A stretch of 64,000 nucleotides of DNA, from NCBI GenBank assembly GCA_016223165.1, contig JACRPO010000012.1:434001-498000 (forward strand). Reading direction: 5' to 3'. Source of the stretch: Burkholderiales bacterium. GTDB lineage: Bacteria; Pseudomonadota; Gammaproteobacteria; Burkholderiales; Burkholderiaceae_C. Below are positions 2,985 through 24,533 of this stretch, piece by piece (position 1 is the first letter of the stretch; each line of letters begins with the position of its first letter). Both the position numbers and the translations under genes were made by a program. The notes beneath the pieces were generated by a model. It did not search any database. It saw nothing but the letters and a program-made list of their open reading frames with translations, and was not told the origin of the DNA.

Positions 2985-3545
2985 TCAGACCTGCGCGCCG
3001 GAGGAGGCGTCCGGCGGCGCCGCGGCGAACGCGTCGCCGCCGCGGGCCCAGACCACCAGGCACTGCGCGTAGTAGCCGAACCATGCGACCGCGCCGAGCG
3101 GCATCGCCAGGAAGACCACCCACTGCGGAATGTCGAGCGACGACTCCGACATCATGCCCATCGAGTGGTAGCGCAGCAGCTGTGGCAACGAGGCACCGAA
3201 CAGCACCGCCGCGAACGCGAGCCCGGCGATGAGCGCCACCAGGTGCATCGCGCGCCGCACCCGCGGCGGCATCGCATCGACGAGCAGTTCCGTGCGGATG
3301 TGCAGCCCGCGGCGCCCGGCCAGGCCGAGCGTGAGGAAGAAGGCCCAGATCATCAGGAAGCGCACCGCCTCCTCGGCCCAGAAGTAGCTCACACCGGCGA
3401 GCGAGCGGCTGAAGCCCTCGAACAGCATCACCAGTGCGGAGGCTAGGAACAGCGCCGACGAGACGGTCAGCAGAGGCCCCGATTCGAAGCGCGACCACCA
3501 CGACACGCGCCGGGATTTGCCAGCGCGCTCAGGATCGGGGCGCAC
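2985..3545 (-). CDS. dctQ: TRAP transporter small permease (DctQ family)
   Basis: A 186-residue inner-membrane protein with four predicted membrane helices, the fold of DctQ. DctQ clamps DctM and docks the periplasmic binding protein. The segment around residues 55 to 70 has the usual W-A-E-E and F-L-M-I-W signature. The start is a GTG only three bases after the stop of the binding-protein gene, so translation is probably coupled. The C-terminal 20 residues are polar and Ala/Pro-rich. Family assignment is strong from position and topology; sequence identity in DctQ is always weak. Confidence 0.85.
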   Translation of the reverse strand: MRPDPERAGKSRRVSWWSRFESGPLLTVSSALFLASALVMLFEGFSRSLAGVSYFWAEEAVRFLMIWAFFLTLGLAGRRGLHIRTELLVDAMPPRVRRAMHLVALIAGLAFAAVLFGASLPQLLRYHSMGMMSESSLDIPQWVVFLAMPLGAVAWFGYYAQCLVVWARGGDAFAAAPPDASSGAQV

Positions 3546-3548
3546 CGG

Positions 3549-4559
3549 CTACTTCTTCGCGCCGCAGCGCGCCCCCAGCGCCGACAGCGCCTGCGCCGCG
3601 TCCGGGTGCTTGTCGACGAACGCCTTGTTGCCGACGGCGGCGCGGTCCTTCCAGCGGCGTGTCTCGTCGGCCGACGCGGTGCGGAACACCGCGCCCTGGG
3701 CCTTCATCTTCTCGACGATCTGCGCGTCGGCGTCGATGGCCTCCTTCCATTGCCGCGAGGCGATCGCGTCGATCGCGTCGACCACGGCCTTGCGCTGGGC
3801 CTCGGGCAGCGCGTCGAACCACTTGCCGTCCACCAGCACCGCGTAGGTGCCGAGCGACATGCCCGGCACGTACCAGGCGTACTTCGCCGAGATGCCGATG
3901 TTCTCGGACCAGCCGGCGGGCGACGTGAACACGCCGTCGATCGCGCCCTGCGAAAGCGCCGTGCCCATCTCGGAGGCGGGCATCGACACCGCGCTGGCGT
4001 CCAGCGCCTTGACCATGTCGAGCAGCACGCGGCCGCCGGTCACGCGCACCTTCATGCCCTTCATGTCCTCGAGCTTCTGCACGTCCTTGCTCTTGAACAC
4101 GAACAGGAGGTCGGCGGTGCGCAGCAGGCCAAGCATGCGCAGCCCGCGCGGCGCGAGGTAACCCGACAGCAGGTCGGTCATGCCCCGGGAGAAGCAGCGG
4201 TCCTGCATCTGCGCGTCGGCCAGCGTGAACGGCAAGGTGACGATGCCGGCGCGCGGGTCGATGGTCTCCAGCCGCGCAGCCAGCGGCCACACCATGTGCA
4301 CGGCGCCGGTGCCGAGCGCGGCCACCGCGTCCTGGTCGTTGTAGAGCTGGCTGGCGGGGAACAGCTTGCCGGTGAGCGCGCCGCCGCTGCGCTTCTTGAT
4401 GTCTTCGGCGAACTCGGCCATGTAGCGCGTCTTCCAGTGGGTGACGGCGATTTCGCTCGTCAGCACCATCTCGGCGGCACGGGTGGGCAGGGCAAGGGCG
4501 ATCAGCGCCGCCACGAAGGTCCATGCGGCCGCCCGGCGGCCGGTAAGGAAAGCAGGCAC
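3549..4559 (-). CDS. dctP: TRAP transporter substrate-binding protein (DctP family)
   Basis: Periplasmic solute receptor of 336 residues. I chose the GTG at 4559 because GAGGAGA lies about seven bases upstream and a clean signal peptide follows, ending A-L-P-T-R-A before A-E-M-V-L. Opening the frame further upstream only adds basic residues that would precede the signal. The conserved DctP region with the carboxylate-binding Arg is seen in M-K-V-R-V-T-G-G near residue 165, followed by the alternating pattern ending in Q-G-A-I-D-G. It opens the operon, divergent from the GntR gene. The ligand is unknown; organic mono- or dicarboxylates are typical. Confidence 0.9.
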   Translation of the reverse strand: MPAFLTGRRAAAWTFVAALIALALPTRAAEMVLTSEIAVTHWKTRYMAEFAEDIKKRSGGALTGKLFPASQLYNDQDAVAALGTGAVHMVWPLAARLETIDPRAGIVTLPFTLADAQMQDRCFSRGMTDLLSGYLAPRGLRMLGLLRTADLLFVFKSKDVQKLEDMKGMKVRVTGGRVLLDMVKALDASAVSMPASEMGTALSQGAIDGVFTSPAGWSENIGISAKYAWYVPGMSLGTYAVLVDGKWFDALPEAQRKAVVDAIDAIASRQWKEAIDADAQIVEKMKAQGAVFRTASADETRRWKDRAAVGNKAFVDKHPDAAQALSALGARCGAKK

Positions 4560-4640
4560 GACAGGTCTCCTCGCGGTTCGTTCGGAAAGCCGGGGCTCGC
4601 GAGCCGGCGATGCCCGGCACTCGGCCCGCTCCAGGCCATT

Positions 4641-4662
4641 TGTTATGATATTACATCCTATG
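4641..4662 (+). promoter_or_regulatory. Candidate promoter and near-leaderless start of the GntR gene
   Basis: TG-T-TATGAT at 4641 to 4649 is an extended -10 element. Transcription from it would begin about seven bases later, only a few bases before the ATG at 4660, and no ribosome-binding site precedes that ATG. The segment is AT-rich in an otherwise GC-rich window and contains imperfectly symmetric ATG and CAT triplets, so it may also carry the regulator's operator for the divergent TRAP operon. Not tested. Confidence 0.4.
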
Positions 4663-5454
4663 ATCGGAGATCTGTCCAGCACTGCCATTCCCGGCGCGAG
4701 CCCGTTGCCCCGGCACGCCCTCGTGGCGCGCGCGCTCGTCGAGCAGATCGGCGCCGAGCGCTATCGCGTCGGCGAGTTGTTGCCGACCGAAGCCCAGCTC
4801 TGCCGGCAGTTCGGCGTGTCGCGCACCACGCTGCGCGAGGCGGTGAGATGGCTGCGCGCCCACGGCATGGTGTCGGCGCGTGCCGGCGTAGGCACCAAGG
4901 TGCTCGCCCGCGAGCCGAATGTGCGTTACGTGCACGCCATCAACTCCATCGCCGACGTGTTCCAGTACGCCAAGGACTCGCGCGCGCCGGTGGTGCTGGC
5001 CAGCCAGGAGTTCGACACCGGCCCGCAGGATGCCGAACTCCTGCGCTGCCCTCCCGGCCAGCGCTGGCTGCGCATCGAGCTGACGCGTGCGTTTCGCGGT
5101 GACGACACGCCGATCCTGCACGCCGTGGCCTGGGTTCCGCAGGCCTACCAGGGTATCGCCCGGCTGGTGCCGCTGCGCAGCAGCCCGATCTACAAGCTGC
5201 TCGAATCCGAGTATCAGGAGCCGGTGCTCCGCGTCGATCAGGAGTTCAAGGCCGCACGCCTGAGCGCCCGGATCGCACGCCTGCTCGGCGCGGCGCGCGC
5301 CGGGGCACCGGCGCTGTGCGTTGTGCGGCACTACTACGGCCGCGGCGAGCGGTTGCTGTTGGTGACGCAGAGCCACTACCGAGCCGACCGCTACAGCTAT
5401 CGCATCGGGCTGCGCTTCGACGCGAGCGGCACCGAGGCGGCGGCGCGCAGGTAG
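4660..5454 (+). CDS. GntR-family transcriptional regulator (HutC/UTRA type)
   Basis: The 264-residue protein has an N-terminal winged helix (residues about 15 to 85) with the GntR hallmark L-P-T-E-A-Q-L-C and F-G-V-S-R-T-T-L-R-E-A. A UTRA ligand domain follows from about residue 100 to 255. UTRA domains bind small effectors, often the substrate of the controlled pathway. It lies between the TRAP operon, divergent with about 100 bp between, and the B12 mutase operon 18 bp downstream on the same strand. The simplest inference is that it controls both. The start is the first ATG after the AT-rich promoter; there is no Shine-Dalgarno sequence. Confidence 0.88.
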   Translation: MIGDLSSTAIPGASPLPRHALVARALVEQIGAERYRVGELLPTEAQLCRQFGVSRTTLREAVRWLRAHGMVSARAGVGTKVLAREPNVRYVHAINSIADVFQYAKDSRAPVVLASQEFDTGPQDAELLRCPPGQRWLRIELTRAFRGDDTPILHAVAWVPQAYQGIARLVPLRSSPIYKLLESEYQEPVLRVDQEFKAARLSARIARLLGAARAGAPALCVVRHYYGRGERLLLVTQSHYRADRYSYRIGLRFDASGTEAAARR

Positions 5455-5472
5455 CCGCAGGAGCGCGCATCG

Positions 5473-6891
5473 ATGCCGATCACCCTCGCCGTGGACTTCG
5501 GCAGCACCTACACCAAGCTGGTCGCCATCGACGCCGAGGGCGAAACGCTGGTGGGCACCGCGCAGTCGCCGACGACGGTGCAGGAAGGCATCGACGTCGG
5601 GCTCGACCGGGCGCTCGAGGCGCTGCGGTCGTCGTGCGGCGTGCGGCGCAGCGACATCGCGCGCACCTTCGCCTCGTCGAGCGCGGCCGGCGGGCTGCGC
5701 ATGGTGGCCATCGGTCTGGTGCCCGACCTCACCGCCGAGGCCGCGCGACGCGCGGCGCTCGGTGCCGGCGCGAAGGTGCTGCGCGTGTGCTCCTACGACC
5801 TTTCGCAGCGCGACCTGGCCGAACTGGCCGCCCTCGCGCCCGACATGCTCCTGCTGTGCGGCGGCACCGACGGCGGCGAGCGCCGCACGATCCTGCGCAA
5901 CGCCGCGGCACTGGCCGGCTCGACGCTGCGCGTGCCGGTGGTGGTGGCCGGCAACCGCGCGGTGCAAGACGAGGTCGAGGCCACGCTGCGCGGCGCCGGC
6001 GTCGAGTGCGTGGTCGTCGGCAACGTGCTGCCCGAGCTCGACCGGCTCGATGTCGAGCCGGCACGCAGCGCCATCCGCGCGATCTTCATGCAGCGCATCA
6101 CGCAGGCCAAGGGGCTGGACCGGGCGCGCGCCTTCGTCGGCGACATCGTGATGCCGACACCGATGGCGGTGCTCGAAGGCGCGCGGCTGTTGGCCTCGCC
6201 CGAAGGCGGCGGGCTCGGCGAGCTGCTCGTGGTCGACGTCGGCGGCGCGACGACCGACGTGCATTCGGTGGCGAGCGGCGCGCCGTCGTCGCCCGGACTG
6301 GTGCCGCGTGGCCTGCCGGAGCCGCACGCCAAGCGCACCGTCGAAGGCGATCTCGGCATCCGCGTCAACGCCGCCACCATCCTGGAGTCCGTCGGCGCGG
6401 CGCGCGTTGCCGCCGCGTTGGGTGCGGGCGCGGGCGAGGCCGACATGGCCGCGGTCGCCGAGCGCGTGCGCGCGCTCGCCGCCGACGTGACGCGCGTGCC
6501 CCCCGACGCCGCCGCGCACGCGCTGGACGCCGCGCTGGCCGCATTGGCGGTCGACACCGCACTCGAGCGCCATGCCGGGCAGGTGAGCACCGCCTACACC
6601 CCCACCGGCGCGGTGCAGCTGCTGCACGGCAAGGACCTGTCGAACGTCTCGATGGTCATCGGCACCGGCGGCGTGTTCGCGCACGGCCGCCATCCGCGGC
6701 GCATCCTCGAGGCGGCCTGCCGCAGCGAACGCTCGCCGACCTCGCTGCGCCCGCGTGCGCCGGCGCTGCGCGTCGATTCGCGCTACACGCTGTTCGCCGC
6801 CGGCCTGCTGGCGCCTTCAGCCCCTCGCGCGGCGGCCGCGGTCGCTGCGCGCCATCTCCAACCCGCGGAGGACGACGCCCATGACGTCTGA
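5473..6891 (+). CDS. glmL: MutL/GlmL-type accessory protein of a B12-dependent mutase
   Basis: The 472-residue protein has the actin/hexokinase-type nucleotide-binding fold of the MutL family. The phosphate loop is V-D-F-G-S-T-Y-T-K near residue 10, and [12 protein letters not shown] near residue 255 is the second one. In clostridial clusters this gene sits with the two glutamate mutase subunits and is thought to be a reactivating chaperone for the cobalamin enzyme. GGAG precedes the ATG by about ten bases. Its last 11 bases overlap the small-subunit gene in another frame, so the three genes form a tight operon. Assignment to the family is strong; the chaperone role is by analogy. Confidence 0.88.
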
Positions 6892-7330
6892 CGACCCCAC
6901 CCTCGTGCTCGGTGTGATCGGCGCCGACATCCACAACATCGGCATCACGATCCTCGGCTCGGCGCTGCGCGCAGCCGGGTTCCGCGTGGTGAGCCTGGGC
7001 ATCCTGGTGTCGCAGGAGGAGTTCGTGAAGGCCGCCGTGGAGACGGCCGCCGACGCGATCCTCGTGTCCTCGCTGTGCGGCCACGGCGAGCTCGACTGCC
7101 CCGGCCTGCGCGCCCGCTGCATCGAAGCCGGCATCGGCGGCATCGTGCTCTACGCCGGCGGCAACCTCGTCGTCGGCAAGCAGGACTGGGCGCCGGTCGA
7201 GGCGCGCTTCGTCGCGATGGGCTACGACCGCGCCTACCCGCCGGGCACGACGCCGCAGCAGGTGATCGCCGCGCTGCGCGCCGACATCGCCGCGCGCGCC
7301 GACGCGGCCCGCACCGGAGCCGACGCATGA
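6881..7330 (+). CDS. glmS: Glutamate mutase-like small subunit (B12-binding, GlmS/MutS type)
   Basis: The 149-residue protein is a cobalamin-binding Rossmann domain. It carries G-A-D-I-H-N-I-G near residue 15, the D-x-H-x-x-G motif whose His replaces dimethylbenzimidazole as the lower cobalt ligand. S-S-L-C-G-H-G-E near residue 65 and [11 protein letters not shown] near residue 90 follow the clostridial GlmS pattern closely. The stop overlaps the ATG of the large subunit as ATGA. A GGAGG stands about ten bases before the ATG. With the large subunit it should form the active dimer with adenosylcobalamin at the interface. Confidence 0.93.
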
Positions 7331-8784
7331 GCCGCGCCGACGCCAGCCCGCCCTCGATGCGACGCTGGAGCGACGACCGCTTCGATGCGATGCGCCGGCA
7401 GGTGCTCGCCGCCTGGCCCACCGGCGCCGAGGTGGATCTCGACGAGGCCGCCGCCTATCACCGCGCACAGCCGCCGGGCAAGAACACGGCCCACGTGCTG
7501 GCGCAGGCGCGCGAGCAGCGCCGCACGCTGGTGCAGCCGCGCGCCGGCGTGGCCGAGATCGAGCCGCAGATCGCGCTGCTGTCGAGGCTGCGCGCGGCGG
7601 GCGCCGACCTGCTGCCGACCACCGTCGACTCCTACACGCGCGAATGCCGCTACGCCGAAGCCGAGCGCGGCCTCGCGCAAAGCCGCGAGGCTGGCCGTTC
7701 GATGCTCAACGGCCTGCCGGCGGTGAACCACGGCGTGCGCGGCTGCCGCCGCATCGCCGACGCCGTCGACGCGCCGCTGTTCGCGCGCACCGCCTCGCCC
7801 GACTGCCGGCTGACGCACGAGGTGATGTACGCCGGCGGCTACACCTCGTGCACCGCCGGGCCCGTCGTCTTCTCCCTCGGCTACGCCAAGGACTACCCGC
7901 TCGCGCGCGCCATCGAGTGCTGGCAGTACTCCTACCGCATGATGGGCGCCTACCACGAGCGCGGCGTGACGCTGAGCGTCGAGCACTACCTGCCGATCTC
8001 GACGCTCGTGCCGCAGTCGATGTCGATGGCCTGCGTGATCCTCGACTCGCTGATCGCCGCGGCGCAGGGCGTGCGCTGCATCTCGCTGGGCATCGGCCAG
8101 CAGTGCCAGCTGGCACAGGACGCGGCGGCGCTGCGTGCCTATCCGCGGCTGGGCCGCCACTACCTCGACCGCTTCGGCTTCCGCGACGTGGCGCTGTCGA
8201 CCGTAATGTCGCAATGGATGGGCGGCTTCCCGCCCGACGAGGGCCAGGCCTTCGGCGTGATCTGCATGGCCGCGCTCGCCGGCTACCTGGGCGGCGTGAC
8301 CTACATGATTTCCAAGTCGCCGCACGAGGCCTTCGGCGTGCCCACCGCGGAGGCCAACATCCACGGCCTGACCGCCTCGAAGATGGTGCTGCGCATGCTG
8401 GCCGACCAGCGCCTCGCGCCGATCGCCGAGATCGCCGCCGAGCAGGAGATCGTCGAAGCCGAAGTGCGCGCGATCGTCGACGCCGCGCTCGACCTCGGCG
8501 ACGGCGACGCCGCCGCGGCGGCGGTGCGCGCCGTCGAGGCCGGCGTGATCGACGTGCCGTTCTCGCCGCACCGCTCGAACGCGAACCGCGCGCTGCCGGC
8601 GCGCGACTGGCGCGGCGCGGTGCGCTTGGCCGAGTTCGGCAACGTGCCGATCCCTGAGCCGGTGCGCGCCTACCACCGCGAGCAGCTCGCGCGGCGCAGC
8701 GCCGGGCGCGCGCCGCGCGAGCCGTGGGAGCTACTGCTGGCCGACGTGAACGCGATCGCCGACGGGGTGCTGTTGCCGGAGTGA
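7327..8784 (+). CDS. glmE: Glutamate mutase-like large subunit (GlmE/MutE type), altered active site
   Basis: This 485-residue TIM barrel matches clostridial GlmE along its length. GlmE with GlmS rearranges L-glutamate to (2S,3S)-3-methylaspartate by radical chemistry. Compared with the Clostridium cochlearium enzyme as I remember it, Arg66, Arg100, Arg149 and Tyr181 are kept here as Arg72, Arg105, Arg154 and Tyr186. His150 has become Thr155, Glu171 has become Thr176 and Tyr177 has become Phe182. The GYGECGN stretch is GIGQQCQ, and the region before L-V-P is one residue shorter. A dicarboxylate is therefore still plausible as substrate, but binding of an alpha-amino group is doubtful. No methylaspartate ammonia-lyase gene is in the window. 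Confidence 0.9.
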
Positions 8785-8821: not shown

Positions 8822-9067
8822 TCAGACGGCCTTCGTGTGCGAGCCGTCGCACAGCGGCGCCTTGCCGCTGGCCTTGCAGCCGCAGAAGTAGACGGTGGTG
8901 CTCTCGGCAGCGGTGTACTTAACCGGCGTGAACTGGCCGGCGGCCTTGTGCGAACCGTCGCAGAAGGGCTGGTTCTTGCTGGCGCCGCAGGAACACCACC
9001 AGTAGTCCTTGCCGGCCTCGACGGCGACGGGATACGGTGCGTTGCTGGCGCGAACGGGGGTGGGCAT
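8822..9067 (-). CDS. CDGSH-type iron-sulfur protein with two domains
   Basis: An 81-residue soluble protein with two CDGSH [2Fe-2S] sites. The first ligand set is Cys25, Cys27, Cys36 and His40, the second Cys62, Cys64, Cys73 and His77, each with the three-Cys one-His pattern of mitoNEET-like proteins. There is no membrane anchor, as usual for bacterial members. AAGGAGG lies seven bases before the ATG. It is the last gene of the minus-strand acyl-CoA operon, 98 bp after the DUF35 gene, so it could also have its own promoter. A role in electron transfer to a neighbouring oxidoreductase is possible but not shown. Confidence 0.88.
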   Translation of the reverse strand: MPTPVRASNAPYPVAVEAGKDYWWCSCGASKNQPFCDGSHKAAGQFTPVKYTAAESTTVYFCGCKASGKAPLCDGSHTKAV

Positions 9068-9165
9068 GCAATCCTCCTTGCGATTCGGTCGATTCACGAA
9101 CCCCGCGACCTGTCGCGCAAGCCCCACCGGGGGACCCGCTCGCACGGCGGGGGCCTGCGCTGCGC

Positions 9166-9564
9166 TCAGGCCGGCACGAACACCGGCAACGGCGGCCCGC
9201 CGTCGCTCGGCTGGAAGCGCACCACCACGCGCTGGCCGATGCGGATCGTGTCCGCATCCGCATCGACGATGTTGGTCATCATCGTCGGCCCCTCGGCGAG
9301 CGTCACGTAGGCCACGACGTACGGCACCTCGGCGCGGCGCATGATGCTGAAGCTGTAGACGTTGCCCTCGCCCTTGGCGGGCCGCCACTGCGTGTTCAGG
9401 CTGCCGCAGAACGGGCAGCCGTCGCGCGGGTAGTGGTGGTGCTCGCCGCAGTCGTCGCAGCGCTTGACGAGCAGCTTGCCCTCGGCGGCGGCGTCCCAGA
9501 ACGGCTTGGCCTCGGGGTAGACGGTGGGCGCCGGCATCTGGCGCCGGCCAATGGTGAGACTCAT
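9166..9564 (-). CDS. DUF35 zinc-ribbon/OB-fold acyl-CoA-associated protein
   Basis: The 132-residue protein has an N-terminal helix, a rubredoxin-like zinc ribbon with Cys36, Cys39, Cys50 and Cys53, and a C-terminal OB fold. DUF35 proteins are partners of thiolase-fold enzymes: the archaeal HMG-CoA synthase/thiolase complex and the ChsH2 DUF35 domain with the Ltp2 aldolase are the known cases. The ATG overlaps the stop of the thiolase-fold gene as ATGA, which fits obligate partners. It is one of four such pairs in the window. Confidence 0.88.
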   Translation of the reverse strand: MSLTIGRRQMPAPTVYPEAKPFWDAAAEGKLLVKRCDDCGEHHHYPRDGCPFCGSLNTQWRPAKGEGNVYSFSIMRRAEVPYVVAYVTLAEGPTMMTNIVDADADTIRIGQRVVVRFQPSDGGPPLPVFVPA

Positions 9565-10727
9565 GCGCGCTCCAGGATGAGGGTGGCACTGCCGTGCCGG
9601 GTGCCCAGCGATCCGCCGGTGCCATGTGCCAGCGCCAGCCGGCAGTTCGGCACCTGCACCTTCGGATGAGCTTCGCCGCGCAGCTGGCGCACGGCCTCGA
9701 TGACCTTGGTCATGCCGCCGCGATTGCCCGGGTGGTTGTTGCACAGGCCGCCGCCGTCGGTGTTGAACGGCAGCTTGCCGGTGCCGGCGATCAGGTTGCC
9801 GTCGCTGACGAAGCGCCCGCCCTGGCCCTTGGCGCAGAAGCCCAGGTCCTCCAGCGTCAGCAGCACGGTGATCGTGAAGCTGTCGTAGATCGACGCGTAC
9901 TGGATGTCCGCCGGCTTCACGCCGGCCTCGGCGAACGCCGCCTTGCCGGTCCAGGCGGCGCCGGTGGTCAGCAGGTCGACCTTGCCGCCGCTCTGGTTGC
10001 GCAGGTACTCGCCGGTGCCGATGACGTTGACCACCGGGCGCTTCAGGCTGCGCGCGATCTCCGGCCGCACGACGACCAGCGCGCCGCCGCCGTCGCTGAT
10101 GACGCAGCAGTCCAGGCGGTGAAGCGGGTCGGCGATCATCGGCGAGCCGACCACGTCCTTCACCGTGACCACCTCGCGCACCATCGCGTGCGGGTTGTGC
10201 TGCGCATGGTGCGACGCCGCGACGCGGATCCACGCCAGCTGCTCGCTCGTCGTGCCGTGCTCGTGCATGTGGCGCATCGCCGCCATGCCGTACATGTTCA
10301 CCGTGGTCGGCGCGTACGGCAGCTCGAAGGGCACGTCGGGCGCGGCGCCGTAGTTGCGCGGCGCGGTGCCGGTGGCCATGCCCTCGGCCTTGGGCCGGCC
10401 GGCCAGCGTGATCAGCGCCACGTTGCAGCGCCCGGCGGCGATGGCGGCCGCGGCGTGCGCGACGTGCACGACGTACGAGGAGCCGCCGGTCTCGGTGCTG
10501 TCGACATGGCGCAGCTTGAGCCCCAGGTAGTCGACCATCGACATCGCGCCCAGCCCCGGCGCGTCGCCGGCACAGAAGTAGCCGTCGACGTCCTTGATCG
10601 TCAGCCCGGCATCGGCGAGCGCGCCGCGCGCGACCTCGGCGTGCAGCTGCGCCACCGACTTGTCGTCGGCGCGGCGGATCGGGTGCTCGTAGGCGCCGGC
10701 GATGCAGGCGGTGTTCTTCAAGCTCAT
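9561..10727 (-). CDS. Thiolase-fold protein of the SCP-x/Ltp type, nucleophilic Cys missing
   Basis: A 388-residue member of the SCP-x-like thiolase family. Where a thiolase would have its nucleophilic Cys the sequence reads S-T-E-T-G-G-S-S, with no Cys. Later landmarks include N-N-H-P-G-N-R-G-G near residue 330 and a C-terminal H-G-T-G-G segment. Loss of the Cys argues against thiolysis and fits Ltp2-like aldolases, which break a beta-hydroxyacyl-CoA by retro-aldol cleavage with a DUF35 partner. The partner gene follows with a 4-bp overlap, and a MaoC gene precedes it by one base. The aldolase role is an inference. Confidence 0.82.
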   Translation of the reverse strand: MSLKNTACIAGAYEHPIRRADDKSVAQLHAEVARGALADAGLTIKDVDGYFCAGDAPGLGAMSMVDYLGLKLRHVDSTETGGSSYVVHVAHAAAAIAAGRCNVALITLAGRPKAEGMATGTAPRNYGAAPDVPFELPYAPTTVNMYGMAAMRHMHEHGTTSEQLAWIRVAASHHAQHNPHAMVREVVTVKDVVGSPMIADPLHRLDCCVISDGGGALVVVRPEIARSLKRPVVNVIGTGEYLRNQSGGKVDLLTTGAAWTGKAAFAEAGVKPADIQYASIYDSFTITVLLTLEDLGFCAKGQGGRFVSDGNLIAGTGKLPFNTDGGGLCNNHPGNRGGMTKVIEAVRQLRGEAHPKVQVPNCRLALAHGTGGSLGTRHGSATLILERA

Positions 10728-10728
10728 G

Positions 10729-11112
10729 TCAGCTTCCTTGCGGCTTCAGGGTCGCCGTGCCCTTGATGACGTCCTGGCCCTTGGCATTGCGCACCCAGAC
10801 CTCGTAGACCGGCGGCTCGCTGCCCATGCGCAACTCGCCGCCGCCGGTGACGTCGTCGTCGATCCGCACCGGCTGCACGAACTTGATCTCCAGGTGGATT
10901 CGATTCAGCGCCTGCACGCCGAGCGTGTTCTTCAGCGCCTGCCAGATGAGCGCCACCGACATCGTGCCGTGGGCGATGATGCCGCCCATCGGGCTCTTGG
11001 CGGCGAAGGCCTTGTCGACGTGGATCGGGTTGTAGTCGTTCGTCACCGCCGCGTACTTCATGATGGTGTCGAAGTCGACGTGCTTGGTCGACGGCTTGAG
11101 CTGGGCATGCAT
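10729..11112 (-). CDS. MaoC-type enoyl-CoA hydratase, small subunit with intact motif (ChsH1-like)
   Basis: A 127-residue single hot-dog protein. The hydratase-2 motif D-x-N-P-x-H is complete as Asp26, Asn28, Pro29 and His31, so it should be the catalytic half. Its size equals ChsH1, which pairs with a motif-less MaoC domain in ChsH2 to hydrate bulky 2-enoyl-CoAs. The motif-less partner is the gene immediately before it in the operon, with 14 bp between. The ATG at 11112 is preferred because the frame upstream is only readthrough. Confidence 0.86.
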   Translation of the reverse strand: MHAQLKPSTKHVDFDTIMKYAAVTNDYNPIHVDKAFAAKSPMGGIIAHGTMSVALIWQALKNTLGVQALNRIHLEIKFVQPVRIDDDVTGGGELRMGSEPPVYEVWVRNAKGQDVIKGTATLKPQGS

Positions 11113-11126
11113 CGCGCGCTCCTTGG

Positions 11127-11528
11127 TCACTGTGCGACGAGCGTCGTCATCACGCCGGCAAACAGCAGTTCGTTCGAACCGGCGGCGCGGGTTTCGCTGC
11201 GCACGCGCACCCATTTGCGGTCCTTCTTGATTTCCTTGTCGAGGCACCACACGTCGGTGCGGATCGTCTCGCCGATGCGCGGCATGCGCTTGACGTCGAA
11301 GGTCTGGCCGCCGTGCACGCCGCCGGGCGGGCGCGGCGAGTTGAGCGTCAGCACGGCATCGATGACGATCATCGCAAGCATGCCGGCCGGCATCACGCCG
11401 GGGTCGTCGTCGTCGGGGTAGACGCTGCGCCACTTCGAGACGGTGGATTCGTCGACCACGAAGTCACGCGCACCGTAGTGCCTGCCGGGCTCGTAGTGAG
11501 CGTAGTCGAAGACCGGTCCTTCGCTCAT
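11127..11528 (-). CDS. MaoC-like hot-dog protein without the catalytic motif (ChsH2 N-domain-like)
   Basis: The 133-residue protein has the N-terminal MaoC-like dehydratase fold. It begins F-D-Y-A-H-Y-E-P-G and later shows the G-G-Q-T-F and G-E-T-I segments typical of acyl-CoA hot-dog domains. The D-x-N-P-x-H signature is absent, with P-D-D-D-D-P-G near that region. In ChsH2 such a domain is fused to a DUF35 domain; here the DUF35 part is a separate gene that overlaps its ATG by four bases. I infer a heteromeric hydratase with the neighbouring 127-residue protein. Confidence 0.8.
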   Translation of the reverse strand: MSEGPVFDYAHYEPGRHYGARDFVVDESTVSKWRSVYPDDDDPGVMPAGMLAMIVIDAVLTLNSPRPPGGVHGGQTFDVKRMPRIGETIRTDVWCLDKEIKKDRKWVRVRSETRAAGSNELLFAGVMTTLVAQ

Positions 11529-11938
11529 GCGGGCTCCACTTGAGGAATCGTCTGCTCGCTGCCGGGGCGCGACTCGAAACACACGCGCACCGGCATGCCG
11601 ATGCGCACCTGCGCCGGGTCGCAGCGCAGCACGTTGCACATGAAGCGCAAGCCCTCGTCCAGATCGACCAGCGCCAGCACGTAGGGCACGTCGCCGGCGA
11701 ACGCGGGCAGCGGCGCGCGGTGGATGACGGAGAAGCTGGCGATCCGGCCGCCGCCGCCGGCCTTCTGCCATTGCAATTGCGTCGCGTGGCAATGCACGCA
11801 GGCCGAGCGGGCGTAGAACTGCGCCTTGCCGCAGGCGCCGCAGCGTTGGTAGCGGAACTCGCCGAGGTTGGCGCCTTCCCAATAGTGGCGGCTGATGCCG
11901 TCGGGCACCGGCACCGGCTTGGCGCGCACGTCGGCCAT
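11525..11938 (-). CDS. DUF35 zinc-ribbon/OB-fold protein (ChsH2 C-domain-like)
   Basis: The 137-residue protein has zinc ligands Cys33, Cys36, Cys47 and Cys50, then an OB-fold region with the V-L-A-L-V-D-L-D-E-G strand. It begins two bases after the stop of the thiolase-fold gene at 11941 and its own stop overlaps the next ATG. Its place between the thiolase-fold gene and the motif-less MaoC gene matches the two contacts that the ChsH2 DUF35 domain makes, to the hydratase on one side and to the aldolase on the other. A start further upstream would overlap the thiolase gene. Confidence 0.87.
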   Translation of the reverse strand: MADVRAKPVPVPDGISRHYWEGANLGEFRYQRCGACGKAQFYARSACVHCHATQLQWQKAGGGGRIASFSVIHRAPLPAFAGDVPYVLALVDLDEGLRFMCNVLRCDPAQVRIGMPVRVCFESRPGSEQTIPQVEPA

Positions 11939-11940
11939 CG

Positions 11941-13092
11941 TCAGGCCCTCCCCAGCAGGATCGAGCAGTGGCCCGAGAAGATGCCGCCCAGCGTGTGTGC
12001 GAACGCCACTTCGGCGTCCTTCACCTGGCGTGGCCCGCATTCGCCGCGCAGCTGGCGCACCGCCTCGACGACGTGGAACATGCCGCCGGCCGCGCCCGAC
12101 GAGCCGTAGGACAGCAAGCCACCGTTGGTGTTGACCGGGAACTTGCCGCCGATGGCGAACTCGCCGGCCAGCGCCGCCGGCCCGGCGGCGCCGCGCTCGT
12201 AGAAGCCCATCGACTCGAGCTGGATCAGCAGCGTGCTCGTGAAGCAGTCGTAGATGTGGGCGCAGTCGACGTCGGCATGCTTCAGCCCGGCGCGGCCCAG
12301 CGCGTCGGCCACCGACTCGCGGCAGCCGAAGTCCACCAGCGAGGGCGCGGCGAAGATGTGCTCGTGGGTGTGGCCCTCGCCGGTGGCGAGCAACTCGACG
12401 GCGCGCTTCGGCCGGTCGCGCCCGGTCTCGGCGGCGCTCACGATGACCGCGGCCGCGCCGTCGGAGACGAGGCAGCAGTCGAGCATGCGCAGCGGCGAGG
12501 CGATCACCTTGGACTTGCGCACGTCGTCAATCGTGATCGGCTTCTTCATGTGCGACTGCGGGTGCAGCGCCGCGTTGGCGCGCTGGTTCACCGCCACCGC
12601 CGCGAGGTGGTCGCCGTTCAGCCAGCCCTCGTGGAAGTAGACCTGCGCGGCCATCGCGAACGCCGCGGGCACGCTCATGCCGTAGGGCTGCTCGTACTGC
12701 GCGTGGCCCACGTCGGCCAGCGCCGCCTGCACCTTCTCGCCCATGCCGCTCAAGCGGTTGTCGCCCGTCACGCACAGCACATGGCGGCACATGCCCGAGC
12801 GCACCAGCGACTCGGCATGCCGCACCAGCAGCCCGCCGGTCATGCCGCCCATGCAGATGGAGGCGTTGACCTTCGGGCGGATGCCGAGGTATTCGGCGAG
12901 CACGCCGCCGAGCATCAGCTGCGGCGACGCGAACGAGTAGGCGGTGAGCAGGCCGTCGATGTCCGACAGCTTCAGGCCCGCATCGGCGAGCGCGCCGAGG
13001 CTGGCCTCGGTGTGCAGCGACATGCAGGTGCTCTCGGGCAGCGCGCCGACCTGGGTGTCGTGAACGCCGCTGACGATGGCTTTGCTGGCCAT
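11941..13092 (-). CDS. Thiolase-fold protein of the SCP-x/Ltp type
   Basis: The 383-residue protein belongs to the lipid-transfer-protein thiolase family. Cys80 in A-S-I-C-M-G-G-M-T-G lies about where the thiolase nucleophile is expected, so unlike the 9561 gene product it could still be a thiolase. The C-terminal part has the N-T-N-G-G and Q-L-R-G-E-C segments shared by the DUF35-associated members. The partner DUF35 gene follows after two bases. It stands directly before the split MaoC genes, so a hydratase-cleavage complex is likely. Thiolase versus aldolase cannot be settled from sequence alone. Confidence 0.83.
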   Translation of the reverse strand: MASKAIVSGVHDTQVGALPESTCMSLHTEASLGALADAGLKLSDIDGLLTAYSFASPQLMLGGVLAEYLGIRPKVNASICMGGMTGGLLVRHAESLVRSGMCRHVLCVTGDNRLSGMGEKVQAALADVGHAQYEQPYGMSVPAAFAMAAQVYFHEGWLNGDHLAAVAVNQRANAALHPQSHMKKPITIDDVRKSKVIASPLRMLDCCLVSDGAAAVIVSAAETGRDRPKRAVELLATGEGHTHEHIFAAPSLVDFGCRESVADALGRAGLKHADVDCAHIYDCFTSTLLIQLESMGFYERGAAGPAALAGEFAIGGKFPVNTNGGLLSYGSSGAAGGMFHVVEAVRQLRGECGPRQVKDAEVAFAHTLGGIFSGHCSILLGRA

Positions 13093-13113
13093 GCTTCTCC
13101 TCGATGATCCGTT

Positions 13114-14241
13114 TCAGGGCAGGCTGACGACGAGGTCGCGCTGCAAGCGGCGCATCTGCTCGACGGCGCCGTCGACCAGCTCGGCCATGATGTCCTTCGC
13201 CGGCCGCCGCGCCTTGACCAGGCCGCCCGCCTGGCCGGCGATGTTGTAGAAGAGGTCGTGGCGCCCGGCCGCCAGCGCCGCGGCGAGGAAGTCCTCCATC
13301 AGGATGCGCTGGTGCGGCGTCTCCAGCGTCGGCAGCCCCGACTCGGCCCAGGCCTGCGAAATCTCGCCGTGGAAGGCGCGCACCGTCTTGCCCGTCCAGA
13401 CCTTGCTGATGCGGAAGGCCTCCGAGTCGGAGGCGACGATCTGGTCCTTGCAGGCGCTGAACAACTGCCCTTCGTCGGCGACGAGGAAGGCGGTGCCGAT
13501 CCACACCGCCTGCGCCCCGAGCGCGAGCGCGGCGACGATGCCGCGGCCGTCGGCGATGCCGCCCGCGGCGAGCACCGGCGTCGGGCTCACCGCGTCGACC
13601 ACCTGCGGGATCAGCGGCAGCGACGCCACCGTGCCGGTGTGGCCGCCGGCCTCGGTGCCCTGCGCCACGATGGCATCGACGCCGCTCTTCTTCTGCCGCA
13701 CCGCGTTGCGCACCGAGCCCGACAGGCCGATCAGCTTCATGCCCTGCGCACGGGCGCGCTCGAGCAGGAAGTCGGGGTCGCCGAGGCCGGCGGCGAAGAC
13801 CGGCACGCGCTCGTCGAAGATGACTTCGAGGACCGACTTCGCGTACTCGAGGTTGACCACCGTCTCGTCGGCCGGCTTCACGTCGGGCAGGCCGTGGCGG
13901 CGAATCAGCTCCTGCACGAACGCGGCATGCTTCGGGAAGCGCGCGCGGATCTCCTCGCGCACCGCCGTGCGGGTGGGCGGCGCGTCGGCGATGCGCGCCG
14001 GCAGCAGCAGGTCGACGCCGAAGGGCTTGTCGGTCAGCGTGCGTACCTCGCGGATGCGCCGGCGCGTCTCCTCCGGCGACAGCCCCGAGCAGCCGAGCAC
14101 GCCCAGGCCACCCGCCTGCGACACCGCGGCCACCAGCGCCGGCGGCGTGGCGCGGCCGCCGACGCCCATGCCGGCCAGGAAGATCGGCACCTCGATGCCC
14201 CAGGCATCGGAGAAGGCGTTGTGCAGCAAGGCCCGGCTCAC
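13114..14241 (-). CDS. FMN-dependent nitronate monooxygenase/2-nitropropane dioxygenase-like protein
   Basis: A 375-residue TIM-barrel flavoprotein. A-Q-G-T-E-A-G-G-H-T-G near residue 190 and A-A-G-G-I-A-D-G-R-G near residue 220 are the FMN-phosphate motifs of the family, and the N-terminus P-I-F-L-A-G-M-G fits as well. The family contains nitronate monooxygenases and the FabK enoyl-ACP reductases. Set between an enoyl-CoA hydratase and a thiolase-fold gene (10 and 21 bp gaps), a redox step on an acyl-CoA is more plausible than nitronate oxidation, but this is inference. Confidence 0.85.
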   Translation of the reverse strand: MSRALLHNAFSDAWGIEVPIFLAGMGVGGRATPPALVAAVSQAGGLGVLGCSGLSPEETRRRIREVRTLTDKPFGVDLLLPARIADAPPTRTAVREEIRARFPKHAAFVQELIRRHGLPDVKPADETVVNLEYAKSVLEVIFDERVPVFAAGLGDPDFLLERARAQGMKLIGLSGSVRNAVRQKKSGVDAIVAQGTEAGGHTGTVASLPLIPQVVDAVSPTPVLAAGGIADGRGIVAALALGAQAVWIGTAFLVADEGQLFSACKDQIVASDSEAFRISKVWTGKTVRAFHGEISQAWAESGLPTLETPHQRILMEDFLAAALAAGRHDLFYNIAGQAGGLVKARRPAKDIMAELVDGAVEQMRRLQRDLVVSLP

Positions 14242-14251
14242 GGCGCCGCGG

Positions 14252-15013
14252 TCACCTGAAGACCGGCTTGCGCTTGGCTCGGAAGGCGGCGACGCCTTCC
14301 TTCACGTCGTCGGTCTGAAACAGGAACGGAAAGGCGTCGATCGCATAGCGCATGTCGTCGCCGCCGATGCCCTTGTTGTAGAACGACTTGGCCATCTGCA
14401 GCGCCATCTGCGGCTTGCCCGCGAGCTTCTCGGCGAAGGCCGTTGCTTCGTCCATCAGCTTCTCGGGTGGCACCGTGCGCAGCGCGATGCCCAGGCTCAC
14501 CGCCTCGGCGGCCGGGATGGGCTCGCCGAGCATGCTCATCTCCTTGGCCTTGGGGCGGCCAACGATCTGGTGCAGCCTCAGCAGCGCGAAGCCGGGCAGC
14601 AGCCCGAGCTGGATCTCGGGTACGCCGAACTTGGCGCGTTCGGAGGCGAGGATGAAGTCGCAGGCGATCGCCAGCTCGAAGCCGCCGCCGAAGGCGATGC
14701 CGTTGACCGCCGCGATCAGCGGCTTGCGGCAGCGCTCGGGCGCCTCCAGAACCGGCAGCACGCTGGCGATGAAGTCGCGTGCCTGCTCCGGCGTCTCGGG
14801 AAAGCTGCTGATGTCGGCGCCGGCGCAGAAAGCCTTGTCGCCGCGCCCGGTGAGGATGCCGACGCGAAGCTCCGGGTCGGCATCGACCATCGCGAGGCCT
14901 TCGGTGACACCCTGGCGGATGCCGACGGAGATGGCGTTGAGCTTGGTGGGCTCGTCCAGGGTCAGGACCGCGACGCGGCCCTTCTTCTCGAATTCGACGC
15001 TGCCGATGCGCAT
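14252..15013 (-). CDS. Enoyl-CoA hydratase (crotonase family)
   Basis: A 253-residue crotonase. The oxyanion-hole region A-G-A-D-I near residue 65 and both catalytic glutamates are present, in G-G-G-F-E-L and V-P-E-I-Q-L-G. It should therefore hydrate a trans-2-enoyl-CoA to the 3-hydroxy form. It is the first gene of the nine-gene minus-strand operon that ends with the CDGSH gene at 8822. About 160 bp upstream lies a CTAACAAAC palindromic site that recurs elsewhere in the window. A-rich TCGAGGAGCATCCC precedes the ATG, giving GAGGAG as ribosome-binding site. Confidence 0.9.
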   Translation of the reverse strand: MRIGSVEFEKKGRVAVLTLDEPTKLNAISVGIRQGVTEGLAMVDADPELRVGILTGRGDKAFCAGADISSFPETPEQARDFIASVLPVLEAPERCRKPLIAAVNGIAFGGGFELAIACDFILASERAKFGVPEIQLGLLPGFALLRLHQIVGRPKAKEMSMLGEPIPAAEAVSLGIALRTVPPEKLMDEATAFAEKLAGKPQMALQMAKSFYNKGIGGDDMRYAIDAFPFLFQTDDVKEGVAAFRAKRKPVFR

Positions 15014-15286: not shown

Positions 15287-16564
15287 TCAACGCCCGTACA
15301 CCAGCCCCGGCAGCCACAGCGACAGCGCCGGCACGTAGGTCACGGCCGCCAGCAGCAGCAGCAGCAGCACGAGGAACGGCGTCGTGCCGCGGATCGCCTC
15401 GCCGATCGGCGCCTTGGCGACGCCGGCGATCACGTACAGGTTCAGCCCGACCGGCGGCGTGATCAGCGCGATTTCCATGTTGATCGTCATCACCACGGCG
15501 AAGTGCACCGGGTCGATGCCCAGCGGCCCGAGCAACGGCACCAGGATCGGCAGCGTGATGAGCATGATCGACGCCACCTCGAGGAACATGCCCAGCACCA
15601 GCAGCACGACGTTGATGATCAGCAGGAACTGCCACGCCGTCAGCCCGAGTCCGCTCATGGCTTCGACGAGCCGGGCGGGCAGCCCGGATTCGGTGACCCA
15701 CTGACCGAAGGCCAGGGCGGTGGCCACGATGAGCATGACGACGGCGGCATTCTTGACCGAGTCGCCGACGACGCCGAACACCTCGCCCCAGCCGAAGCCG
15801 CGGTAGACGAGCAGCGATACCGCCAGCGCGACGAGCGCGGCCAGCGCGGCCGCCTCCGTGACTGTCACCAGCCCGCCGTAGATGCCGACGGCGATGACCA
15901 GCGGCACGGCCAGCGCCGGCAGCGCGATGAGGTTGACGCGCACGAACTGCGCGCGCGGCGCGGCGGCCTGGCGCGGATAGCCGTGGCTGCGTGCGTGCCA
16001 CATGACCCACAGCGCGAAGATCAGCGCCTGCAGCAGCCCGGGAACGACGCCGGCCAGGAACAGCCGCGGAATCGACTGCTCGGCGAGGATGCCGTAGAGG
16101 ATCAGCGGCAGGCTCGGCGGGATGAGGATGCCCAGCGTGCCCGCGGCGCCGACGAGGCCGAGCGCGAACGGGCGCGCGTAGCCCTTGTCGACCATCGCCG
16201 GAATCATGATCGTGCCGATGGCCAGCGCGGTGGCGACGCTGGAGCCGCAGATCGCCGCGAACAGCATGCACGCGGCGACGGTCACCACGCCCAGGCCGCC
16301 GTGCAGGCGCCCGAGCCAGGCGTTGGAAACGTCGATCAGCGCCTTCGAGATGCCGCCGCGCAGCATGAAGTTGGCCGCCATCACGAAGAACGGCACGGCC
16401 ACCAGCGTCGGCGAATTCAGCTCGTCGAGGATCTTCTGCGCGATGCCGACCAGCGGCCGCCCTTCGGCGGCCGTCAGCACACCGGCCGAGATGCCCAGCA
16501 CGAGGAAGATCGGCAGCCCCGCCGCCAGCAGGACGAGGAAGACGAGCAGCAGCAGCGTGCCCAC
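15287..16564 (-). CDS. dctM: TRAP transporter large permease (DctM family), second copy
   Basis: A 425-residue polytopic protein with the DctM motifs P-F-F-V-M-A-A-N-F, G-S-S-V-A-T-A and T-P-P-V-G-L-N-L-Y. It is clearly related to, but different from, the DctM at 1697. The start is a GTG four bases after the DctQ stop. It is the last gene of the ten-gene operon that begins with the MmgE/PrpD gene at 24268. In the Pseudomonas aeruginosa itaconate locus a DctPQM set likewise closes the operon, so uptake of a C5 dicarboxylate is the best guess. Confidence 0.92.
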   Translation of the reverse strand: MGTLLLLVFLVLLAAGLPIFLVLGISAGVLTAAEGRPLVGIAQKILDELNSPTLVAVPFFVMAANFMLRGGISKALIDVSNAWLGRLHGGLGVVTVAACMLFAAICGSSVATALAIGTIMIPAMVDKGYARPFALGLVGAAGTLGILIPPSLPLILYGILAEQSIPRLFLAGVVPGLLQALIFALWVMWHARSHGYPRQAAAPRAQFVRVNLIALPALAVPLVIAVGIYGGLVTVTEAAALAALVALAVSLLVYRGFGWGEVFGVVGDSVKNAAVVMLIVATALAFGQWVTESGLPARLVEAMSGLGLTAWQFLLIINVVLLVLGMFLEVASIMLITLPILVPLLGPLGIDPVHFAVVMTINMEIALITPPVGLNLYVIAGVAKAPIGEAIRGTTPFLVLLLLLLAAVTYVPALSLWLPGLVYGR

Positions 16565-16568
16565 GCGT

Positions 16569-17099
16569 TCAGCTCTCGTGGCCGCTGCGCGGCGCCATCG
16601 TCGCGGCGTCGTAGTGCCACAGCCAGCGCGCGAGGCGCCGCAGGTAGCGCAGGGTCATCAGAGCGGCACCCAGCGGCAGGCTGGCGTAGTACAGCCACAT
16701 CGGAAACGCCAGCGGCGTCAGGCTGCGTTCGTTGAGCCGCCAGGCATCGCGCGCCACCTCGAAGCCGAACCATGCCAGCAGCGCGCAGAAGACGATCGCC
16801 AGCGTGCAGTTGAGCACCTCCACCGCCCGCACGGCGGCGGGCGGCAGCAGACGCAGCACGAGGTCGGCGCGCACGTGGGAGTCCTCCTCGACGAGCAGGC
16901 TGCCCGCGACGAAGGTCGCGCCGATCAGTCCGTAGACGAGCACCTCGTCGGACCACGTCACCGCCCAATCGGTGGCGACGTAGCGCGTGAGGATGCGATG
17001 CGCGGCCAGCGCCAGCGCGAGCAGGCCGAGCGCGCCGATGAACCCGCGTTCGAGCCGGTCCCACCAATGCAGGCCGCGATGGCCCGGTCGGGCTTGCAT
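16569..17099 (-). CDS. dctQ: TRAP transporter small permease (DctQ family), second copy
   Basis: A 176-residue protein with four membrane helices. The family region W-S-D-E-V-L-V-Y-G-L-I-G and the acidic V-E-E-D-S-H-V-R-A-D-L segment around residues 65 to 80 are typical of DctQ. It lies 21 bp after the DctP gene and four bases before the DctM gene. It has no enzymatic role; it scaffolds the large permease in the inner membrane. Confidence 0.87.
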   Translation of the reverse strand: MQARPGHRGLHWWDRLERGFIGALGLLALALAAHRILTRYVATDWAVTWSDEVLVYGLIGATFVAGSLLVEEDSHVRADLVLRLLPPAAVRAVEVLNCTLAIVFCALLAWFGFEVARDAWRLNERSLTPLAFPMWLYYASLPLGAALMTLRYLRRLARWLWHYDAATMAPRSGHES

Positions 17100-17120
17100 G
17101 TGCCGGGTGGCCGGTTTGCG

Positions 17121-19116: not shown

Positions 19117-19147
19117 CTTTGCTTCCTGGGAAAGGTTGGCTGTGGTG

Positions 19148-19465
19148 TCATGCATTGCCGCCGCGCACGCGTGCGAAGTGCCAGGCCAGGCCGAGCCCGG
19201 CCAGCACCGCGCCGAGCCACAGGGCGATAAAGCCGGCGCTGTCGTCGAGGCCCAGCCCGTCGGCGAGGCGCAGCAGCGCCCAGCCGATGGCCAGGTTCAC
19301 GCCGCCCCACAGCACGTTGACGATCGGCGACGATTCGCCGACGCCCGGCGGGCGCGCGAACGGGCTCTGGAAGCGCCGCCCGCCGATGCCGGCGACCCAG
19401 TGCGGCACGGCGTTGGCGAGGAACACTCCGGCGAGGAACAGCCACAGCAGGCGCATCGGGTCCAT
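19148..19465 (-). CDS. Small membrane protein of unknown function
   Basis: A 105-residue hydrophobic protein with three to four predicted membrane segments: residues about 3 to 25, 46 to 68 and 74 to 97. The loop between the first two is Gly/Pro/Arg-rich. It ends with a short basic tail. I do not recognise the family. It lies 18 bp after the CoA-transferase gene and 31 bp before the lyase gene, all on one strand, so it is part of the C5-dicarboxylate-type operon. It could be a minor transport or membrane-association factor. Base composition is like its neighbours. Confidence 0.68.
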   Translation of the reverse strand: MDPMRLLWLFLAGVFLANAVPHWVAGIGGRRFQSPFARPPGVGESSPIVNVLWGGVNLAIGWALLRLADGLGLDDSAGFIALWLGAVLAGLGLAWHFARVRGGNA

Positions 19466-20707: not shown

Positions 20708-20721
20708 CGCGTCGTCCCGAC

Positions 20722-24268: not shown

Positions 24269-24413
24269 CGGCTCGGGGTCTGCATGTCGCGGCGCCGCAG
24301 GCCGGACGCACGCGCAGAGCACGAACAGTACGCAGCAGCGAGAAGGGACATGGCCGGACGGTGATGGCGTGCTTGTGGTCGCGCCCGGGAATTCGCCCGG
24401 CGACCGAGCTACG

Positions 24414-24427
24414 CTAACAAACGCTCG
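24414..24427. promoter_or_regulatory. Candidate operator CTAACAAACGCTCG
   Basis: This shares its first ten bases, CTAACAAACG, with the palindromic site at 15172, and the right arm is degenerate. It lies about 146 bp before the MmgE/PrpD start and 107 bp before the second copy of the motif at 24534. The likely binder is a TetR-type repressor of acyl-CoA genes, which is inferred from the site shape only. Confidence 0.42.
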
Positions 24428-24533
24428 ATAGTGCGTCAAGGCGCGCGGCCATGCCACGTGCCGGCCCCGCCGCCTCTGCGCAGCGGCGGGTTGCCGGGGG
24501 GCGCCTCAGCGGCTACGATGCAGCGGTCATCTT

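Follow-up and report, generated by a model that had tools for sequence, protein, structure and literature searches.

The glmL-glmS-glmE operon and its relatives

The 64,000-nucleotide stretch of DNA analysed here (the window; positions 434,001 to 498,000 of contig JACRPO010000012.1, assembly GCA_016223165.1) derives from a Burkholderiales bacterium and carries at 5473–8784 a complete glmL-glmS-glmE operon, which lies downstream of a GntR gene. Judged from its sequence, the operon appears to encode a conserved, unusual variant of glutamate mutase, the substrate of which is probably different. The GlmL/MutL-type reactivase gene (5473–6891, plus strand) matches NF040745 at 558 bits (cut-off 475) and PF13941 at 535 bits. 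The gene for the GlmS-like B12-binding subunit (6881–7330, plus strand) matches TIGR01501 at 183.5 bits (cut-off 135.8) and exceeds the cut-off of NF002612, and the PDB entry that its product matches best is 1i9c, a sigma subunit of glutamate mutase, at 168 bits (aligned residues 7–137). The GlmE-like catalytic subunit, which has 485 amino acids and an altered substrate pocket (7327–8784, plus strand), matches PF06368 at 521 bits and TIGR01503 at 514 bits (cut-off 390). The GntR-type regulator (4660–5454, plus strand; alternative start at 4645) has helix-turn-helix and UTRA parts recognised by the Pfam GntR and UTRA models. All junctions are tight, with 18 bases between the GntR and GlmL genes and overlaps of 11 bases between GlmL and GlmS and of 4 bases between GlmS and GlmE. 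No RNA above the Rfam gathering score, such as a B12 riboswitch, was found in window positions 1–32000. The window genome is 7.3 Mb in size, 99% complete and contains one PF06368 match.

Four relatives (L002–L005), labelled Rubrivivax sp., Burkholderiaceae (two) and Betaproteobacteria, were found by a pattern scan, at 82–94% identity. Their GlmE proteins are 80–97% identical to that of the window, and when 33 rows are aligned the five proteins of the window type make up a single clade on a long stem (FastTree support 1.000). The catabolic glutamate mutases, groups that look biosynthetic and a second altered Burkholderiales group described below (clade B) all fall outside it. Each locus was counted once, L006, L029/L045 and L001 being duplicates of L005, L003 and the window, respectively. 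Fragments or weak matches (L014, L020, L037) were excluded, and for the short loci L007–L010, L013, L015, L016, L030–L036 and L038, longer sequences covering the same positions were used instead.

The distribution of the clade is sporadic. PF06368 was searched in family, class, phylum and order samples of 399, 369, 398 and 399 genomes, and was above its cut-off in 6, 5, 6 and 9 genomes, respectively; these 26 rows count the window genome once in each of the four samples and correspond to 23 distinct genomes. The window type is present in three of the 23, each from a different genus: the window genome (G000), G199 (which carries L005) and G1219 (which carries L003). Five listed congeners of the window genome are without a match, as are five of the six genomes of the L005 genus, three of these latter five being less than 90% complete. 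A pattern scan found no relative in viral contigs. In plasmids, 25 records were matched, all below 60% identity.

This patchy occurrence, in the window congeners and the L005 genus alike, is what might be expected of a decaying or repurposed glutamate mutase that has lost its mutase activity, as is the state of L003 (positions 1450–2400), where only 47 residues still match GlmL and where glmS is preceded by an enoyl-CoA-hydratase-like gene of opposite orientation. We nevertheless consider such decay very improbable. The reading frames are open, the cobalamin-binding motif and the substrate-binding arginines described below are intact, and both reactivase and regulator are kept in the window, L002, L004 and L005. 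The ratio of non-synonymous to synonymous substitution rates (dN/dS) is ~0.17–0.31 between the window and L003–L005, the three relatives of 80–83% identity, and 0.13 between L004 and L005. Such values, of about 0.13–0.31 between lineages, speak in favour of a functional protein, and the clade looks to be under purifying selection.

The GlmE substrate pocket

Residues 12–483 of the window GlmE align with the solved epsilon subunit of Clostridium cochlearium glutamate mutase (PDB 6h9e and 1cb7; 452 and 448 bits, respectively; ~45% identity). The claw formed by Arg66, Arg100 and Arg149 of the reference is kept as Arg72, Arg105 and Arg154 in all five clade members, and Tyr181 corresponds to Tyr186. 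Other parts of the pocket are changed: Glu171 is Thr176, Tyr177 is Phe182, His150 is Thr155, GYGECGN is GIGQQCQ, and one residue is deleted at reference Gly221, ahead of T-L-V-P. These assignments, including the deletion before L-V-P, had been made in an initial annotation of the window and all proved correct in the alignment with C. cochlearium GlmE. The clade further differs from this enzyme by Asn170Cys, Gly172Ala, Pro180Gly and His291Ser, and the pocket changes are fixed in all five members. Features shared with C. cochlearium GlmES (1cb7, 1ccw, 1i9c, 6h9e and 6h9f) are the two-subunit organisation, the claw, Tyr181, Lys326, Glu330 and the B12 motif D-x-H-x-x-G of GlmS, which is retained in the window as DIHNIG. 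Directly after this motif, asparagine is replaced by isoleucine in all five clade members and is present in the remaining 12 aligned rows.

Seventy alignment columns are invariant in the 18 glutamate-type rows, by which we mean all rows outside the window clade and clade B except L026 and L043, C. cochlearium being the sole proven enzyme among them. Fifty-two of these columns are kept in the window clade and 16 are changed in all five members. The changed columns include His150, Thr152, Glu171, Gly172, Tyr177, Pro180, Arg213 and His291. Among the kept columns are Arg66, Arg100, Arg149, Tyr181, Gly68 and Asn123, as well as Lys326 and Glu330, which we take to act at the cofactor. A crystal-structure paper (PMC10947579), a search of which for the last two residues found nothing, describes Arg66, Arg149 and Glu171 as holding the glycyl part of the substrate, with Glu171 hydrogen-bonding the amine, Arg100 and Tyr177 as holding the acrylate, and the adenosyl group as bound by amide carbonyls in the backbone of Gly68 and Asn123. 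Because these contacts can be mapped onto the kept and changed residues, the carboxylate grip is predicted to stay and the amine contact to go. The initial annotation had placed both Glu171 and Tyr177 near the amino group, which agrees with that paper for Glu171 but not for Tyr177, which touches the acrylate half (PMC10947579).

Neither Thr171 nor Phe177 occurs in any of the 28 rows outside the window clade, and Arg149, His150, Glu171 and Tyr177 are all kept in 18 of the 20 rows outside both the window clade and clade B, the exceptions being L026 and L043 (a further locus, L019, also keeps these four residues and is absent from the second alignment). As to whether the Thr/Phe pair is common among proven glutamate mutases, it occurs in none of the eight rows made up of C. 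cochlearium, the one proven enzyme in the alignment, and seven operons with a methylaspartate ammonia-lyase gene next to glmE (L021, L022, L023, L024, L027, L028 and L054); Glu171, His150 and Tyr177 are found in all eight.

It could be argued that the enzyme is still a glutamate mutase in which other residues replace Glu171, and that its methylaspartate is used by a deaminase, a transaminase or a biosynthetic route. The intact claw would agree with this, as would the sharing of ~45% of residues with C. cochlearium GlmE, and scores above the curated cut-offs of TIGR01503, NF002612, TIGR01501 and NF040745. We regard this explanation as unlikely, given that His150, Glu171 and Tyr177 are changed in all five clade members and kept in 18 of the 20 rows outside the window clade and clade B, biosynthetic-looking ones included, and that the scanned genes adjoining the window operon include none recognised as encoding an adenylation domain.

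Predicted substrate and pathway

The substrate of the window enzyme is, in our judgement, probably a dicarboxylate other than glutamate. On balance, we favour reading the operon as an adenosylcobalamin-dependent carbon-skeleton mutase for which glutamate would no longer be the main substrate, the likeliest reaction being the conversion of 2-hydroxyglutarate to 3-methylmalate; the identification of 2-hydroxyglutarate itself is more tentative. The GlmE-type barrel, GlmS-type B12 subunit and GlmL-type reactivase would be built like those of glutamate mutase, and the three-arginine claw and cofactor-side residues would hold a linear C5 dicarboxylate that is split and rejoined via an acrylate intermediate. 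Because Glu171 is replaced by Thr, and His150, Tyr177 and His291 by Thr, Phe and Ser, the migrating two-carbon fragment should lack an amino group. Substrate binding would accompany splitting of the Co-C bond, and the adenosyl radical would then abstract a hydrogen from the chain. The two-carbon fragment would leave the acrylate unit as a stabilised radical and rejoin at the neighbouring carbon, following the mechanism proposed for glutamate mutase in PMC10947579. With Thr at position 171, the best-suited fragment would be one in which the amine is replaced by a hydroxyl group or by nothing polar. From 2-hydroxyglutarate, a stabilised hydroxy-acetate radical would arise and then 3-methylmalate. 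Glutamate mutase itself is reported (Roymoulik and others 2000) to turn L-2-hydroxyglutarate slowly into threo-3-methylmalate. A mesaconase is described as taking part in the L-threo-beta-methylmalate metabolism of a soil Bacillus (PMC4682846), so that a 3-methylmalate-type product would have a known way into metabolism; PMC8473912 was consulted for the glutamate pathways.

Upstream, a TRAP transporter gene set on the minus strand encodes a DctP solute-binding protein divergent from the regulator (3549–4688; PF03480; translation probably begins later than the first ATG), a DctQ small permease (2985–3545; PF04290) and a DctM large permease (1697–2965; PF06808, TIGR00786). It has been annotated as a divergent dicarboxylate-type transporter next to a GntR regulator. 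Both do adjoin the operon, but "dicarboxylate-type" is a mere family name for DctP. Assignment of DctP as a known dicarboxylate binder is likewise unsupported, its nearest solved relatives scoring at most 74 bits and including sialic-acid binders. Homologues of the regulator and transporter also adjoin glmLSE in L005 (GntR 58%, DctP 70%, DctQ 70% and DctM 79% identical), with the GntR homologue directly before glmL; in L004 the GntR homologue (64%) precedes PrpD-glmL. A simple repeat and motif scan found no operator common to the window, L002, L005 and L004 ahead of the regulator. In the pathway that we envisage, the adjoining TRAP transporter would handle the acid and the product would be used as a C5 branched dicarboxylate.

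Genes that could act on such a product are found in the same window, on the minus strand at 18.2–24.5 kb. They encode an MmgE/PrpD-family protein (22904–24457; PF03972/PF19305; best PDB match IDS-epimerase, 178 bits), a MaoC protein resembling mesaconyl-coenzyme A (CoA) hydratase (22361–22852; PF19315 MC_hydratase at 108.5 bits, cut-off 26.5; NF041625 at 116 bits, below its cut-off of 560), an acyl-CoA dehydrogenase with four Pfam acyl-CoA dehydrogenase domains (21198–22364), a class III CoA-transferase (19484–20737) and a CitE/malyl-CoA-lyase-type lyase (18208–19155). The CoA-transferase is nearest to succinyl-CoA:mesaconate CoA-transferase (NF041294 at 468 bits, below its cut-off of 700; next model 274 bits), and its best PDB match is YfdE (239 bits). 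The best PDB matches of the lyase are malyl-CoA/beta-methylmalyl-CoA lyases (5ugr at 273 bits and 4l9y at 259 bits; next 162 bits), whereas the NCBIfam ranking is different, with citE and RipC_Ccl at 174 bits each and haloarchaeal beta-methylmalyl-CoA lyase at 98 bits, all below their cut-offs. As a set, these genes look like those of enzymes for methyl-branched C5 dicarboxylates, and it is possible that they constitute the downstream pathway of the mutase, to which only their proximity links them.

The relatives have further candidates beside their operons. In L004, genes for TctC, GntR, PrpD, GlmL, GlmS, GlmE, a hydratase-like protein, acyl-CoA dehydrogenase and class III CoA-transferase follow one another on one strand, with gaps of -20 to 180 bases from GntR through the CoA-transferase (the start of the hydratase gene is uncertain). 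The best model for this hydratase-like protein is itaconyl-CoA hydratase RipB/Ich (210 bits, below the cut-off of 340), and it matches Pfam MC_hydratase at 92 bits. In L003, glmE is followed by a TctC gene and, ~3.3 kb downstream, by a gene of the isocitrate/isopropylmalate dehydrogenase family (best model LEU3_arch, 278 bits, below its cut-off), some members of which oxidise 3-alkylmalates. These neighbouring genes would fit branched C5 diacids, though they are not conserved, the dehydrogenase-family gene being seen in L003 only.

A route of this kind could be an ammonia-free counterpart of the methylaspartate pathway, opened by a new B12 reaction from 2-hydroxyglutarate to 3-methylmalate, a proposal that we put forward as speculative. 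A PrpD-type enzyme would dehydrate 3-methylmalate to mesaconate or, alternatively, an isopropylmalate-dehydrogenase-like enzyme would oxidise it to 2-oxobutyrate. Mesaconate CoA-transferase, hydration and beta-methylmalyl-CoA lyase would then give glyoxylate and propionyl-CoA, with the genes at 18.2–24.5 kb of the window as candidates for the last steps. The 2-hydroxyglutarate substrate, which the initial annotation had suggested as an example, is plausible as a first guess, the evidence found for it lying only in the neighbourhood, namely the L003 dehydrogenase and the PrpD, hydratase-like and CoA-transferase genes of L004.

The pocket, being less polar at positions 171, 177 and 291, would also suit a methylene group, and the acyl-CoA dehydrogenase, CoA-transferase and hydratase-like genes of L004 and the window could handle methylsuccinate. 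Another non-amino dicarboxylate could therefore be the substrate, in a conversion of 2-methyleneglutarate to 3-methylitaconate, 2-oxoglutarate to 3-methyloxaloacetate or glutarate to methylsuccinate. We think this rather unlikely: no typical gene of 2-methyleneglutarate breakdown was seen among the annotated neighbours (some neighbours are unannotated, and no whole-genome search was made), and on chemical grounds glutarate would need an unstabilised acetate radical. The known 2-methyleneglutarate mutase, likewise a B12 carbon-skeleton mutase, resembles the predicted enzyme in acting on a C5 dicarboxylate that lacks an amino group and differs from it in consisting of a single large polypeptide.

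Methylaspartate ammonia-lyase, the enzyme that usually follows glutamate mutase in catabolism, was sought with TIGR01502 and gave no match in any of the five clade genomes, the window genome included. As a positive control, the model recovered the ammonia-lyase directly behind glmE in G1108, and it also matched elsewhere in the clade-B genome G1177, with two sub-cut-off pieces in the clade-B genome G1256. PF07476 gave one match in the window genome, at 23.4 bits, below its cut-off of 27; this model also had matches in 11 of 14 control genomes, over the cut-off in two. An ammonia-lyase gene stands directly after glmE in all seven operons of the catabolic glutamate mutase branch of which the neighbours were seen. 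The cobalamin adenosyltransferase PF01923 is present in all five clade genomes, which can thus convert cobalamin to the cofactor; the CobA-type adenosyltransferase (PF02572) was found in none of the five.

Several observations weigh against our reading of the operon, or lower the value of the evidence for it. The clade genomes differ in completeness (G000 99%, G199 98%, G1219 87%, two without a figure), and the ammonia-lyase was also not found in any of four biosynthetic-looking genomes whose GlmE keeps the pocket residues (G078, G261, G1155 and G1364). Its absence thus excludes the usual catabolic pathway only, and as proof of a new substrate it was rejected as not specific; the initial annotation was right that the gene is missing, in all five clade genomes, but took this for stronger evidence than it is. 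Since the absence in these four genomes would fit a biosynthetic enzyme, it lowers our confidence in a non-glutamate substrate and raises that in a modified glutamate mutase. A Glu171Gln glutamate mutase reportedly retains some activity, so that loss of Glu171 alone is no proof of a new substrate. An AlphaFold2 model of GlmE built from five sequences had a mean predicted local distance difference test score of 33.5 and was discarded; it gives no pocket geometry. Curated NCBI equivalog models accept the proteins as methylaspartate mutase E, S and accessory protein, and no member of the clade has a known activity, the function being predicted from genes. The neighbouring catabolic genes vary among the window and L002, L003, L004 and L005. 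The best PDB match of the L003 dehydrogenase is isocitrate dehydrogenase, and its gene is separated from glmE by one of opposite orientation. PrpD genes are common in the clade (7, 8, 33, 8 and 7 matches in G000, G199, G1219, G1500 and G1501, respectively), yet the L003 contig is without a PrpD match even though its genome has 33. The idea that the window and L005 have a conserved PrpD gene near glmE was also considered and rejected, the two not being orthologues: the reciprocal best hit of the L005 gene is another copy in G000 (78.6–78.7%), the window copy being 60% identical.

The term "hydroxyglutarate mutase" occurs in no paper of the open-licence literature searched. The same literature yielded nothing on glutamate mutase together with Glu171, on methylaspartate mutase in combination with Burkholderiales, or on 3-methylmalate along with dehydrogenase and 2-oxobutyrate, and for methylmalate, hydroxyglutarate and glutamate mutase together it yielded only a review of fermentations. 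The suggestion of an undescribed carbon-skeleton mutase in the initial annotation stands as regards a GlmSE-type enzyme that has lost glutamate-linked residues, a clade-wide pattern with Thr171 or Phe177 in none of the 28 other rows; "undescribed" is a fair inference. To our knowledge, very few carbon-skeleton rearrangements that depend on B12 have been described. A natural GlmE clade in which the amine contact has been removed and the claw kept would be a ready experiment on substrate choice by this fold, and may bring to light a new route by which C5 dicarboxylates enter metabolism. As the window proteins pass the curated methylaspartate mutase models, metabolic reconstructions would assign them a possibly wrong reaction.

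Related systems and neighbouring genes

Like annotated glutamate mutase operons, the window operon has a GlmL partner and adjacent genes. The methylaspartate clusters on Ensifer, Rhizobium and Gemmobacter plasmids have glmS-(glmL)-glmE together with genes for a class III CoA-transferase and a CoA-ester lyase. The relatives of this CoA-transferase and lyase in the window are distant (28–32% identical) and located 9–12 kb from glmE. In the plasmid clusters, glmE is directly followed by an ammonia-lyase gene, and a gene for fumarate hydratase is close by; in the window clade, no ammonia-lyase was found.

Clade B comprises eight Burkholderiales rows (L039, L040 and L046–L051) with the changes Arg149Leu, Glu171Leu, His150Thr/Ser, Glu214Arg and His291Leu. 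It resembles the window clade in the loss of His150 and Glu171 and in having no ammonia-lyase match beside glmE, and differs from it in the loss of Arg149 (to Leu), the retention of Tyr177 and other neighbours. At some clade-B loci, the neighbours are enolase-superfamily-like, alcohol-dehydrogenase/quinone-oxidoreductase-like and TctABC genes, named by eye from the starts of their sequences; the neighbour comparison was made without L041, L042, L043 and part of L040. Clade B may represent an additional mutase, again with a different substrate. The genome G1219 carries both the window type and clade B.

Two single loci depart further from the glutamate type. The GlmE relative of L026 (Fusobacterium vincentii, 4998–6452) has Tyr66, Lys149, Asp171 and His177 and lies on a very long branch. 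That of L043 (G412:C25) has lost most pocket residues, with Arg66Gln and Arg149Val, and is ~31% identical to the window protein.

Downstream of the operon in the window, a run of minus-strand genes at 8822–15013 converges on glmE. It consists of thiolase-like, nitronate-monooxygenase-like, enoyl-CoA-hydratase, DUF35-like, CDGSH-like and MaoC-like genes, part of which were family-scanned, the DUF35, CDGSH and MaoC names being assigned by eye. A second DctP-DctQ-DctM TRAP-like set, also on the minus strand (15290–18158), adjoins the lyase gene; its DctP was identified with Pfam, its DctM through being 42% identical to relatives of the first set, and its DctQ from position and weak similarity.

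GlmE relatives in L025, L044 and L017 are found in unusually long frames of about 640–880 codons. The first part of the L044 frame resembles a B12-binding sequence, which gives the appearance of a fusion of the two subunits. L025 adjoins annotated amino-acid adenylation genes and is probably biosynthetic. A further GlmE group (L041, L042, L052 and L053) keeps Arg149, His150, Glu171 and Tyr177, with no ammonia-lyase match in its four genomes. In L052 and L053, glmE adjoins genes that were recognised by eye as AMP-ligase-like and decarboxylase-like.

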